NCBI GenBank assembly: GCA_902632545.1
Contig: CACPCX010000001.1
Location: 59,629 to 123,628, forward strand
DNA from: an uncultured Pelagibacteraceae bacterium
GTDB taxonomy: Bacteria > Pseudomonadota > Alphaproteobacteria > Pelagibacterales > Pelagibacteraceae
Reading direction: 5' to 3'
DNA length: 64,000 bases
The notes beneath the pieces were generated by a model, which made no database searches, was not told the DNA's origin, and saw only the letters and a program-made list of their open reading frames with translations. Shown here in pieces: positions 50,309-57,636 of this stretch (the stretch's first letter is position 1; each line of letters starts with the position of its first letter). The position numbers were made by a program, and so were the translations under genes.

Positions 50309-51390
50309 ATAACTTCACAAGCTATAGCTTTTTCCTTTCCAATCAATCCAAGTTTTTCAACAGTTTTACCTTTTAGATTTATTAATTCTTTATCTATACC
50401 CAATAACTTAGATAAAGATTTAATAATTTTATCTCTATACTTTGAAACTTTTGGTTTTTCACAAATCAAATTTATATCTAGATTATTAATAAAATAGTTT
50501 TTTTTATTTAAAATTTCATTGATAGGTTTAAGCATTTTTGGAGATCTAATATTTTTAAATTTTTTTTGATTATCAGGAAAAAAAGTTCCAATATCCTTTT
50601 TTTTCATCGCTCCTAAAATAGAGTCTATTACAGAGTGAATAATTACGTCACCATCTGAATGACCTTTAAGACCTGAATGAAAAGGGATTTTTATCCCACC
50701 TAGAAAAAGCTTTTTACCCTTTATTAACCTATGTATATCAAATCCAATTCCAAAATAAGTTTTGTTGTTTTCTAAATCTTCTTTGTATGTGATTTTATTA
50801 TTTAAATTTTCACCTTTAATGATTTTTATTTTCAAATTATTTTCAATAAATAATGTAGCTTCATCTGTAACCTTATTTTTTTGTTTTACAGACAAGCTGT
50901 ATAAATCTTTAAATTTAAACGCTTGTGGTGTTTGCGTTAAGTAGGAATTATTTCGATTTAAATTAAAAAGTTGGTTTTTAATCATGTATTTAATAGAATC
51001 TTTTGAATTTATAGCAGGTATAACTGCTCTATAATTTTTAAGGGTTTTAATTAAGTTATTTAGAAGTTTAATTGTAAAATTTGGTCTTGCAGCATCGTGA
51101 ATTAAAACATTATTAGGTTTAAATTTTTTAATATATTTTAAGGCAATTAATGAAGAGTCAGATCTTTCCTTTCCACCTTTAATAATCAAAACATTTTTAG
51201 CTAATTTTTCCTTAATATTTTTTTTATTATTTACAACCAATATAATTTTTTTGAACAGCTTTGATTTTATTGCTTTTTCAAGAGAATGTTTAAAAAGAGC
51301 CTTGTTTTTATAAATATTAAATTGTTTTGGATTATTTGAATTAAATCTTTTGCTTTGTCCTGATGCTAGTATTATAAAATAATTATTCAT
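50290..51390 (-). CDS. ispDF: bifunctional 2-C-methyl-D-erythritol 4-phosphate cytidylyltransferase / MECDP synthase
   Basis: This fused enzyme carries two MEP-pathway steps. Residues 1-210 are IspD, with the nucleotide loop ILASGQSKRFNSNNPKQF and VLIHDAARPNFT. Residues from about 215 are IspF, with FGIGFDIHRLIKGKKLFLGGIKIPFHSGLKGHSDGDVIIHSVIDSILGA, including metal-binding Asp and His, and TFFPDN. IspDF fusions are standard in alphaproteobacteria. It is divergent from ntrY with only 25 bases between the starts. Confidence 0.96.
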   Translation of the reverse strand: MNNYFIILASGQSKRFNSNNPKQFNIYKNKALFKHSLEKAIKSKLFKKIILVVNNKKNIKEKLAKNVLIIKGGKERSDSSLIALKYIKKFKPNNVLIHDAARPNFTIKLLNNLIKTLKNYRAVIPAINSKDSIKYMIKNQLFNLNRNNSYLTQTPQAFKFKDLYSLSVKQKNKVTDEATLFIENNLKIKIIKGENLNNKITYKEDLENNKTYFGIGFDIHRLIKGKKLFLGGIKIPFHSGLKGHSDGDVIIHSVIDSILGAMKKKDIGTFFPDNQKKFKNIRSPKMLKPINEILNKKNYFINNLDINLICEKPKVSKYRDKIIKSLSKLLGIDKELINLKGKTVEKLGLIGKEKAIACEVICSISE

Positions 51391-51415
51391 TTATATTGGT
51401 AGTTTTTATATTCAA

Positions 51416-53197
51416 ATGTACGAATTTATTAAAAAAAATATATACTTAATAATATTATTTATTATCACATTATCGATAGGTTTTTTAACCTTTTTAACTT
51501 TTATAGATAAAGGATTTATTGAATTAACCGATCAAAATTTACAAATATTATTGGTTCTTAATATTTTTCTTTTATTAACACTCTTTATATTTATTTTCAT
51601 AGAAATTAGAAGTGCCATTAAAAATGACATTGATAAAGATGGTTTTAAATCAAATAAAAAATATATTACATATTTTGGTTTATTCACATTAATTCCGTCA
51701 CTACTGATATCAATATTTTCGTTATTTTTATTTTCTTTTGCTTTAGAAAAATATTTTGACAAAAAAGTTACAACTGTTGTTAATAATTCTTATGAATTGG
51801 CAAGGAATTATGTTGATGAAATCAGAAATAAAATTCAATCAGATATTGTTTTAATTGCTTTTGATACTAACAAAAGTAAAAAATTTTTAAATAATAATAC
51901 TAATGAGTACAGAAGGTTTCTAAATACTCAAAAATTAATTAGAAATGTAGATGAAATACATATCATAGATATTAATAAAGAAATTTTATTTACCACCTTA
52001 AATGAAGATCAGCAATATACACCTCCATTAGACAAGGCATTAAATCTAGTATTAGATGACGATCGTCCATTAAAAATTATTAATGCGCCAGAAAATATTT
52101 CTGCGGCTATAATGAGGCTACAAAATTTTGAAGATAGATTTTTATATGTTGTTAAATATTTAGATAAAGATATATCAAAGTATTTGGCCGAGTCTCAAGA
52201 AGCAATTAATTTTTACTATACTGTAGAAGAAAAAAGTACTGGTATTAAAATTTCATTTGCTATTATTTATATTATCGTTGTTAGTGTTCTATTATTTGTG
52301 TCTATATCTATAGCTATAAGATTTTCATCAAGATTTTTTAGGTCTATAAATAATCTCATAATTGCTTCAACATCAATTGGTCAAGGAAATTTTGATGCAA
52401 AAGTACCAGAAGTAAAGACCGATAAAGACCTTGAAAATTTAAATAAAAATTTTAATTTAATGATTGATAGATTGAAAAATCAGCAAGAAAAATTAATAAT
52501 TAATGAAAGACACGAGGCCTGGGGAAGTTTAGCTAGAAAACTTGCTCATGAAATAAAAAATCCTCTTACGCCAATTCAATTAACTATTGATAGACTAAAA
52601 AACAAATATTCTAATGAACTCAAAAAAAGTGAGTCAAATAATTTTAAGGAAAATTTAAAAATTATTAACAATCAAATTAAACAAATTGAAAAATTAGTTA
52701 ACGAGTTTTCTGATTTTGCAAGGATGCCAAAACCTATTTTTAGAGAAAATAATTTAGTAGATTTGATTGATGACAATATTAAATTATTAAAAGAATTAGA
52801 TAATTCTATTAATATTACATTTAATAAAAATTTAGATAAAATTTTACTTGAAAGTGATAAAGAACAAATAAGCAGGGTATTTTTAAATTTGATTAAAAAT
52901 TCAATAGAAAGTATCAATCAGAAAGCTCAAAATAATAGAAATTTCAATAAAAAAATCACTATTGAACTTATTCAAGAACATAGCCACATTAGAGCTACAA
53001 TTGAAGATAATGGTATTGGTTTTAGTAAATTGAAAAATAATATTAAAGATATACTTAATCCGTATTTTACAACTAAGAAAAATGGGACTGGTTTGGGATT
53101 GTCGATAGTAAACAAAATAGTTAATGACCATAATGGTAAAATTGATTTTATATCAAAAGATGATGGAGCAAAAATTAATATAATATTTTTAAAATAG
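51416..53197 (+). CDS. ntrY: NtrY-family sensor histidine kinase (without PAS domain)
   Basis: This membrane histidine kinase is the likely partner of NtrX. Three hydrophobic helices lie at about residues 8-30, 43-63 and 84-110, then an extracytoplasmic domain to about 275, a fourth helix (278-302), a HAMP linker (about 302-355), HisKA with the phospho-acceptor His378 (KLAHEIKNPLTPIQL) and a HATPase with N-box FLNLIKNSIES, EDNGIGFS and GTGLGLSIV. Classical NtrY has a PAS domain between HAMP and HisKA; here there is no room for one (593 residues against about 750). The signal sensed is unknown. Confidence 0.92.
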   Translation: MYEFIKKNIYLIILFIITLSIGFLTFLTFIDKGFIELTDQNLQILLVLNIFLLLTLFIFIFIEIRSAIKNDIDKDGFKSNKKYITYFGLFTLIPSLLISIFSLFLFSFALEKYFDKKVTTVVNNSYELARNYVDEIRNKIQSDIVLIAFDTNKSKKFLNNNTNEYRRFLNTQKLIRNVDEIHIIDINKEILFTTLNEDQQYTPPLDKALNLVLDDDRPLKIINAPENISAAIMRLQNFEDRFLYVVKYLDKDISKYLAESQEAINFYYTVEEKSTGIKISFAIIYIIVVSVLLFVSISIAIRFSSRFFRSINNLIIASTSIGQGNFDAKVPEVKTDKDLENLNKNFNLMIDRLKNQQEKLIINERHEAWGSLARKLAHEIKNPLTPIQLTIDRLKNKYSNELKKSESNNFKENLKIINNQIKQIEKLVNEFSDFARMPKPIFRENNLVDLIDDNIKLLKELDNSINITFNKNLDKILLESDKEQISRVFLNLIKNSIESINQKAQNNRNFNKKITIELIQEHSHIRATIEDNGIGFSKLKNNIKDILNPYFTTKKNGTGLGLSIVNKIVNDHNGKIDFISKDDGAKINIIFLK

Positions 53198-53198
53198 T

Positions 53199-54554
53199 AT
53201 GAGTGAAGAAATTTTAATTGTAGATGATAACGCTGACATTAGAAATATAATTAATGAATTGATTATAGATTCAGGTTACAAAACCCGTTTGGCAGCAAAT
53301 TATAATCAAGCACTTACGGAAATTGATAAAAAACTACCTGATGTTGCTATTCTTGATGTTAAATTAGATAAAGGAGACAATGATGGTATTAAACTTCTTT
53401 CACACATCAAATCTAAAAATAAAGATATACCGGTTATAATTATATCTGGCCATGCAAATATAGAAATGGCTGTTAAATCTTTACAGAATGGAGCATTTGA
53501 ATTTATAGAAAAACCATTTGATCAAGATAGATTACTTAATTTTGTTAAAAGAGCAGTAGAAAACTTTAATTTAAAAAAACAAAATAAAGAATATGAAAGT
53601 AAATTATTTTCATCATACGAATTAATTGGTGATAGTAAAAATATTGTAAATATAATTGATCAAATAAAAAAGATATCAATAACAGAAAGCAGAGTTTTTA
53701 TAAGCGGACCTTCAGGTTCAGGAAAAGAATTAATAGCAAGAAAAATTCACAAAACTTCAAATAGATACAAAAATCCTTTTGTTGTGCTTAATGGTGCTCT
53801 ACTTGATAATATTAAATATGAATTAGAATTATTTGGTGAAGAAAAAGAAAATGGATCTATTTCATATGGAGCCCTTGAAAAAGCAAATAAGGGTACACTT
53901 TTGATTGACCAAGTTTCAGAAATACCATTAGATATTCAATCAAAAATACTAAGAGTTTTAACAGATCAAAAATTTAAAAGAGTTAATGGTAGCAATGATG
54001 TTCATGTAGATGTGAGATTAATATGTTCTTCAAGTAAAGATTTAAAAAAAGAAATTGAATTAGGAAATTTTAGAGAAGATTTATTTCATAGAATAAATGT
54101 TTTTGAGATAAATGTAGAACCTTTAAATCAAAGAGTTTCTGATATTCCTTTGTTAATTAAATATTTTTCAAAAAAAATATGTGATAATTATAGTATTAAA
54201 GAATTAGAGATAGATGAAAATAATAGCTACATATTAAATCATAATTGGCATGGTAATGTTAGAGAATTAAGAAATTTAATTGAAAGAATTGCAATTTTAC
54301 AACCTGACTCAAAAGATAAAATCTCCAATATCATTAAAGAGTCTCTAAAAAATAATAATTTTGACGATCAATTGGCCGAAAACAGCCTATCTGTGCCATT
54401 AAAAGAAGCTAGAGAAAAGTTTGAAAAAGAGTATTTAACTATTCAATTAAAAAAATTTAATGGAAATATTTCTAAAACAGCAAATTTTGTTGGAATGGAA
54501 AGAAGTGCTTTGCATCGAAAATTAAAAGGCCTAGGGATTAAAGAATTTAATTAA
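53199..54554 (+). CDS. ntrX: NtrX-family response regulator
   Basis: The protein has a receiver domain (phospho-acceptor Asp53, acidic pair Asp9/Asp10, Lys105), an AAA+ domain with Walker A GPSGSGKE at 170-177 and arginine-finger region FREDLFHRIN, and a C-terminal Fis-type helix-turn-helix (NISKTANFVGMERSALHRKLKGLGI). The sigma54-contact GAFTGA loop is replaced by ENGSISYGALEKA. The Walker B segment reads GTLLIDQVSEIP, so the catalytic Glu is Gln238. ATP hydrolysis is thus doubtful and it probably acts as a sigma70-type repressor or activator. It lies 1 base after ntrY and immediately before trkA. Confidence 0.94.
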   Translation: MSEEILIVDDNADIRNIINELIIDSGYKTRLAANYNQALTEIDKKLPDVAILDVKLDKGDNDGIKLLSHIKSKNKDIPVIIISGHANIEMAVKSLQNGAFEFIEKPFDQDRLLNFVKRAVENFNLKKQNKEYESKLFSSYELIGDSKNIVNIIDQIKKISITESRVFISGPSGSGKELIARKIHKTSNRYKNPFVVLNGALLDNIKYELELFGEEKENGSISYGALEKANKGTLLIDQVSEIPLDIQSKILRVLTDQKFKRVNGSNDVHVDVRLICSSSKDLKKEIELGNFREDLFHRINVFEINVEPLNQRVSDIPLLIKYFSKKICDNYSIKELEIDENNSYILNHNWHGNVRELRNLIERIAILQPDSKDKISNIIKESLKNNNFDDQLAENSLSVPLKEAREKFEKEYLTIQLKKFNGNISKTANFVGMERSALHRKLKGLGIKEFN

Positions 54555-57385: not shown

Positions 57386-57462
57386 GCGCCCTTAGCTCAG
57401 CTGGATAGAGCATCGGTTTTCTAAACCGAGGGTCGGAGGTTCGAATCCTCCAGGGCGCGCCA
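57386..57462 (+). tRNA. tRNA-Arg (anticodon UCU)
   Basis: The 77-base sequence folds as a full cloverleaf: acceptor GCGCCCT/AGGGCGC, D-stem GCTC/GAGC, anticodon stem TCGGT/ACCGA with loop TTTCTAA giving anticodon TCT, and T-stem GGAGG/CCTCC with loop TTCGAAT. CCA is encoded at the 3' end after discriminator G. It lies 28 bases after trkH; TATATA at about 57366 could be its -10. Confidence 0.97.
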
Positions 57463-57578: not shown

Positions 57579-57615
57579 ATTCAAAAGCAATTTTGAATTA
57601 TTTGTTAACAAATAA
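57579..57615 (+). promoter_or_regulatory. two abutting inverted repeats upstream of aapJ
   Basis: ATTCAAAA (57579-57586) and TTTTGAAT (57591-57598) form an 8-base inverted repeat with a 4-base loop. It runs directly into a perfect 18-base palindrome, TTATTTGTTAACAAATAA (57598-57615). The ATG of aapJ follows 21 bases later, after a good ribosome-binding site (AAAGGAAG). The arrangement could be a regulator-binding site or 5' UTR hairpins on an abundant transport mRNA. No GC-rich stem or T-tract makes it a terminator. Confidence 0.5.
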
Positions 57616-57636
57616 AAATAACATAAAGGAAGAATA

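Follow-up and report, generated by a model that had tools for sequence, protein, structure and literature searches.

The ntrX locus described here raises a simple question: what becomes of an AAA+ regulator when its catalytic Walker B glutamate is replaced by glutamine? This exchange is a standard tool to freeze AAA+ motors. NtrX is a nitrogen-stress gene switch, and SAR11, the group carrying the locus, is among the ocean's most abundant bacterial groups. The gene lies in a 64,000-nucleotide stretch of DNA, hereafter the window. The source genome is a draft of 38 contigs, 77.8% complete, and its relatives agree with its NtrX state. Features needed below are as follows.

51416..53197, + strand: ntrY, cognate histidine kinase, intact (domain matches NtrY_N, HAMP, HisKA and HATPase_c)
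53199..54554, + strand: ntrX, NtrX response regulator of 451 amino acids, REC, AAA+ and Fis-type HTH domains (profile matches, 5m7n)
53355..53357, + strand: Asp53, predicted phosphorylation site, intact (102/102 Q-group sequences)
53706..53729, + strand: Walker A, GPSGSGKE, residues 170-177, intact (K176 in 102/102 Q-group sequences)
53790..53792, + strand: Asn198, 'glutamate switch' partner, retained here and replaced by Asp in genus g9
53823..53879, + strand: L1 loop region, residues 209-227, without GAFTGA like all sampled NtrX
53910..53912, + strand: codon 238, CAA, encoding Gln at the Walker B catalytic Glu column (translation, alignment)
54069..54092, + strand: arginine-finger stretch FREDLFHR, residues 291-298, intact (R292 and R298 in 102/102)
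54255..54278, + strand: sensor II stretch NVRELRNL, residues 353-360, intact (R355 in 102/102)

Several lines bear on the identity of the protein. NF051870 (NtrX) is the top family, scoring 536.8 bits over residues 3-447, below its curated cut-off of 600, and the runner-up family scores 333.7 bits. Domain matches are PF00072, PF00158, PF25601 and PF02954, which include a sigma-54-activator-type AAA+ domain, its lid and a Fis-type HTH. The top solved structure is Brucella NtrX, 5m7n (394 bits, 7.6e-117). Directly upstream is ntrY, and the gene order ispDF-ntrY-ntrX-trkA-trkH is kept in most relatives sampled. This is the only bacterial enhancer binding protein (bEBP, PF00158) in the source genome. 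In S. meliloti NtrX, D53 has been shown to be the phosphorylation site (PMC9223101).

An earlier note, made from the DNA letters, had read a Gln in the Walker B catalytic column and had described Walker A and the arginine-finger region as kept. Both readings hold. Walker B is GTLLIDQ, with DQ instead of the DE catalytic pair, and the Glu of Brucella LYLDEVADMP aligns with Gln238. The arginine-finger stretch reads NFREDLFHRI and sensor II reads NVRELRN.

How widely is the change shared? We compared NtrX from SAR11 genomes with that of other alphaproteobacteria, the latter nearly all from different families. In an even draw of the source genus (42 NtrX), position 238 is Gln in 23, His in one and Glu in 18, so that 24/42 are without Glu. 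The best 80 loci of a separate collection gave 78 Gln and two His, as expected for close relatives. Asn occupies this position in 17/17 genomes from four further genera of the family (g5, g7, g9 and g12). The remaining sampled genera, and 16 sequences from the order's second family, have Glu. Outside SAR11, 88 sequences comprise 83 with Glu, two with His, one with Asn, one with Asp and one unreadable at this point (83/87 readable are Glu). The paralogue NtrC was found next to NtrX in 17 of the 20 genomes checked; it has Glu in all 17, including two genomes whose NtrX has lost it. This distribution, over SAR11, other alphaproteobacteria and NtrC, shows that loss of the Walker B Glu is a recurrent trait of NtrX, concentrated in SAR11. 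Hence, alignment across these groups upholds the earlier note in one respect, since Gln238 is no strain quirk or error. It corrects any SAR11-wide reading: sister clades keep Glu and four genera have Asn. A literature search, mostly of open-access papers, found no description of an NtrX Glu-to-Gln substitution. Separately, seven Pelagibacter genomes of 94-97% completeness (G127, G143, G162, G172, G188, G194 and G196) gave no NtrX match, reflecting assembly gaps or true losses.

Trees place these changes more precisely. In a first tree, from which column 238 had been removed, all Gln and His types group together with an SH-aLRT of 100; this clade (31 rows) sits among Glu-bearing Pelagibacter. 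The first tree splits the Asn-type SAR11 sequences into two basal groups and a second tree unites them with support of 89, so the number of origins of this type, one or two, depends on the tree. Since the Q/H clade is nested in Glu types, and Asn types are separate, SAR11 has lost the Glu at least twice (E to Q, later Q to H; and E to N), with about four scattered losses outside SAR11. We conclude that Gln238 marks one Pelagibacter clade, rather than SAR11 overall. Comparison of the Q/H clade with every Glu-type SAR11 sequence gives only three fixed differences (90% or more in each group): 238 (E/Q), 246 (T/I) and 348 (Y/H).

The earlier note had coupled the substitution to a missing GAFTGA loop. 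That coupling does not stand. A GAFTGA-like motif, defined as G[ASC][FY]TG, occurs in 0/276 NtrX (0/88 from other alphaproteobacteria and 0/188 from SAR11). Hence, alphaproteobacterial NtrX ordinarily lack it, as has already been noted for Caulobacter (PMC10274813). We reject loss of GAFTGA and of Glu as a single event, because the motif is missing family-wide in this sample. Sigma-54 (PF04552) has no match in the 77.8% complete source genome and none over the cut-off among 117 genomes of the order; for comparison, it was found in 67/80 class-level genomes. The sigma factors reported for SAR11 are sigma-70 and sigma-32 only (PMC13198564). A tie between loss of Glu and loss of sigma-54 is unsupported: rpoN is present in 3/4 non-SAR11 genomes that have lost the Glu versus 64/76 with it (Fisher P 0.5).

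Codon changes at position 238, counted by parsimony and therefore rough, indicate how each residue is maintained. The Q/H clade, with 99 distinct sequences of which three have His, gives about 15 synonymous changes (CAA/CAG) and one amino-acid change (Q to H). The chance of at least 15/16 being synonymous is about 1e-6 for an assumed neutral share of one third, and about 3e-4 for one half. Hence, Gln238 is clearly kept by selection. Asn-type SAR11 sequences show four synonymous and no non-synonymous changes, and purifying selection holds the codon both as Gln and as Asn. Glu-type SAR11 sequences show 12 synonymous changes and no others, so the Glu still matters in sister Pelagibacter NtrX, for hydrolysis or for the switch. 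Within the Q clade, Walker A and Walker B are among the slowest stretches, with N/S counts of 0.07 and 0.09, versus 0.28 for the protein as a whole.

The rest of the ATP site is similarly conserved. Asp9, Asp10, Asp53, Lys105, Lys176, R292, R298, R355 and HTH residues vary little or not at all across the Q, H and N groups, and every sampled sequence has Asp53. The Walker B Asp237 is kept in 100/102 Q-group sequences; the other two (L067 and L104) have Glu instead (LLIEQ). The Q group retains Asn198, whose counterpart pairs with the Glu in the PspF 'glutamate switch'. In genus g9, all seven genomes sampled (L161, L162, L163 and L165-L168) combine Asp198 with Asn238. This exchange of Glu:Asn for Asn:Asp looks like a compensatory swap, a hypothesis drawn from one lineage. 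Elsewhere in the class, one NtrX (L261) has both its Walker A Lys (GPVGSGQE) and its Walker B Glu (LYLDH) replaced and has probably lost normal ATP binding; its genome gave no rpoN match.

What, then, might Q-type NtrX do? One guide is the engineered PspF E108Q, which carries the identical change in the same column, and also retains the switch Asn. This protein has <1% of wild-type ATPase activity, binds ATP 30-fold more tightly and forms constitutive hexamers, with or without nucleotide, in which the glutamate switch is engaged (PMC4132715). It engages RNA polymerase, with good activation only on pre-melted DNA (PMC4132715). Note that PspF E108Q is a laboratory mutant of a sigma-54 activator with GAFTGA, whereas in NtrX the change arose naturally, has become fixed and affects a protein that lacks GAFTGA. 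By this analogy, the earlier note's expectation of ATP binding without hydrolysis gains support. We think it fairly likely that Q-type NtrX is a phosphorylation-controlled, ATP-binding and essentially non-hydrolysing regulator of sigma-70 type. With similar confidence, we regard Gln238 as a natural counterpart, fixed and kept by selection, of the Glu-to-Gln 'ATP trap' familiar from textbook Walker B mutants. The protein would probably work as an ATP-gated clamp, and not as a motor. We infer its loss of ATPase activity, oligomeric state and sigma-70 mode.

The steps could be as follows. NtrY would phosphorylate Asp53. Walker A, sensor II and arginine fingers acting in trans would hold ATP, and the bound nucleotide would stabilise an NtrX oligomer. 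The Fis-type HTH would then bind operators at sigma-70 promoters, where NtrX may activate or repress by contact or occlusion. Remodelling of sigma-54 would not be expected, because the GAFTGA loop and sigma-54 are both absent. With hydrolysis no longer needed, the catalytic Glu would be free to go, and a replacement favouring tight ATP binding and stable oligomers could then become fixed.

Known regulators offer partial parallels. NtrX proteins of other alphaproteobacteria (Brucella 5m7n/5m7o/5m7p, Caulobacter, Sinorhizobium) share the orthologous architecture, the NtrY partner, the lack of GAFTGA and an intact Asp53, Walker A, arginine fingers and HTH. The difference is that the Walker B Glu is preserved in Brucella NtrX and in 83/87 class-level NtrX. 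Rhodobacter capsulatus NtrC, a sigma-70 bEBP likewise described as without GAFTGA, is reported to act at sigma-70 promoters in a way that requires ATP to be bound but not hydrolysed, according to the account in PMC10274813. It differs in being an NtrC rather than an NtrX. We know of no loss of the Glu from its Walker B motif. Vibrio cholerae VpsR, a bEBP-like regulator, also acts at sigma-70 promoters with no GAFTGA; ATP and phosphorylation are reportedly unneeded there, as summarised in PMC10274813, whereas Walker A and Asp53 of the NtrX studied here are strictly conserved. Relative to sigma-54-dependent bEBPs, our NtrX is without GAFTGA, without the DE pair (DQ instead) and without a genomic sigma-54. 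Caulobacter NtrC, also without GAFTGA, provides a caution: its Walker B Asp mutant is non-functional (PMC10274813). Hence, loss of GAFTGA alone does not make hydrolysis dispensable.

These comparisons bear on the competing explanations. That Gln238 reflects a sequencing, assembly or strain-specific error is barely credible. Nothing was found in its favour beyond the draft state of the source genome; some 100 independent genomes have Gln there, through either CAA or CAG codons, and we reject this candidate. Loss of the Glu is likewise neither chance nor error, because the Q/H clade shares it across 99 different nucleotide sequences. A more serious alternative, which we nevertheless think unlikely, is that Gln238 NtrX turns over ATP slowly, the substitution tuning the lifetime of the active oligomer. 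Slow ATPase activity is possible, being compatible with the sequence. The residual ATPase of PspF E108Q is stimulated 4-fold by its target (PMC4132715), the remaining catalytic-site residues are kept, both arginine fingers included, and Gln238 itself is under selection. However, SAR11 replacements also include Asn and His, a better fit to lost catalysis than to rate tuning.

Replacement by Q, H, N or D in different lineages could instead suggest relaxed constraint, with the ATPase decaying in a streamlined genome and the domain a mere scaffold whose ATP binding is unused. Disappearance of GAFTGA and sigma-54 would fit, as would the lost Walker A Lys of L261. We consider such decay improbable, since 102 Q-type sequences show no variation in Walker A, the arginine fingers or sensor II, and purifying selection acts on codon 238 in both its Gln and Asn forms. 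Several findings count against our preferred reading, of an ATP-binding but essentially non-hydrolysing regulator: sister Pelagibacter NtrX keep the Glu under equally strong selection, the Walker B Asp mutant of Caulobacter NtrC is non-functional, PspF E108Q has some residual ATPase, and the source genome is incomplete. A broader proposal, which we offer only tentatively, is that SAR11 NtrX has repeatedly become ATP-locked and non-cycling. The switch would be rewired, as Gln:Asn in the clade studied here and as a charge-swapped Asn:Asp in one genus (E238N with N198D). ATP binding would then serve as a structural or energy-status signal read without hydrolysis.

NtrX without GAFTGA (Caulobacter, PMC10274813) and an engineered Glu-to-Gln change (PspF, PMC4132715) were already known; a natural, fixed Glu-to-Gln change in an NtrX clade appears, from the papers found, to be new. 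Evolution has fixed an AAA+-freezing mutation in the only recognised bEBP of the source genome. If the preferred reading is true, an AAA+ regulator does not need an ATPase cycle to function, and the role of ATP in regulators lacking GAFTGA becomes testable with natural Q-, N-, H- and E-type orthologues. Residue 238 is a natural experiment, since two closed genomes of the source genus differ there, one with Gln and one with Glu; cultured relatives of both types would allow tests.

Possible operators were also sought. The Brucella/Sinorhizobium NtrX motif, CAAN2-5TTG, has no match within 51250-51430, upstream of ntrY. A match at 57588, upstream of yhdW, was rejected as an operator: it is not conserved, and the window holds 149 matches. 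No regulon could be built, because the palindrome TTTGTTAACAAA, also upstream of yhdW, has a single occurrence in the genome. Upstream of an amino-acid transporter gene (57637), a TTCAAAA-n-TTTTGAATTATTTGTTAACAAATAAA block at 57580-57616 is nearly invariant in the Pelagibacter compared. It has no Rfam match. Within it lies ATTTGTTAACAAAT (57600-57613), a perfect palindrome of 14 bases; the palindrome's 12-base core has a single occurrence in the genome. The block is possibly an operator or a 5' UTR element. Between trkH and the transporter gene is a tRNA-Arg (anticodon TCT, 57386-57462), whose position is kept in relatives.
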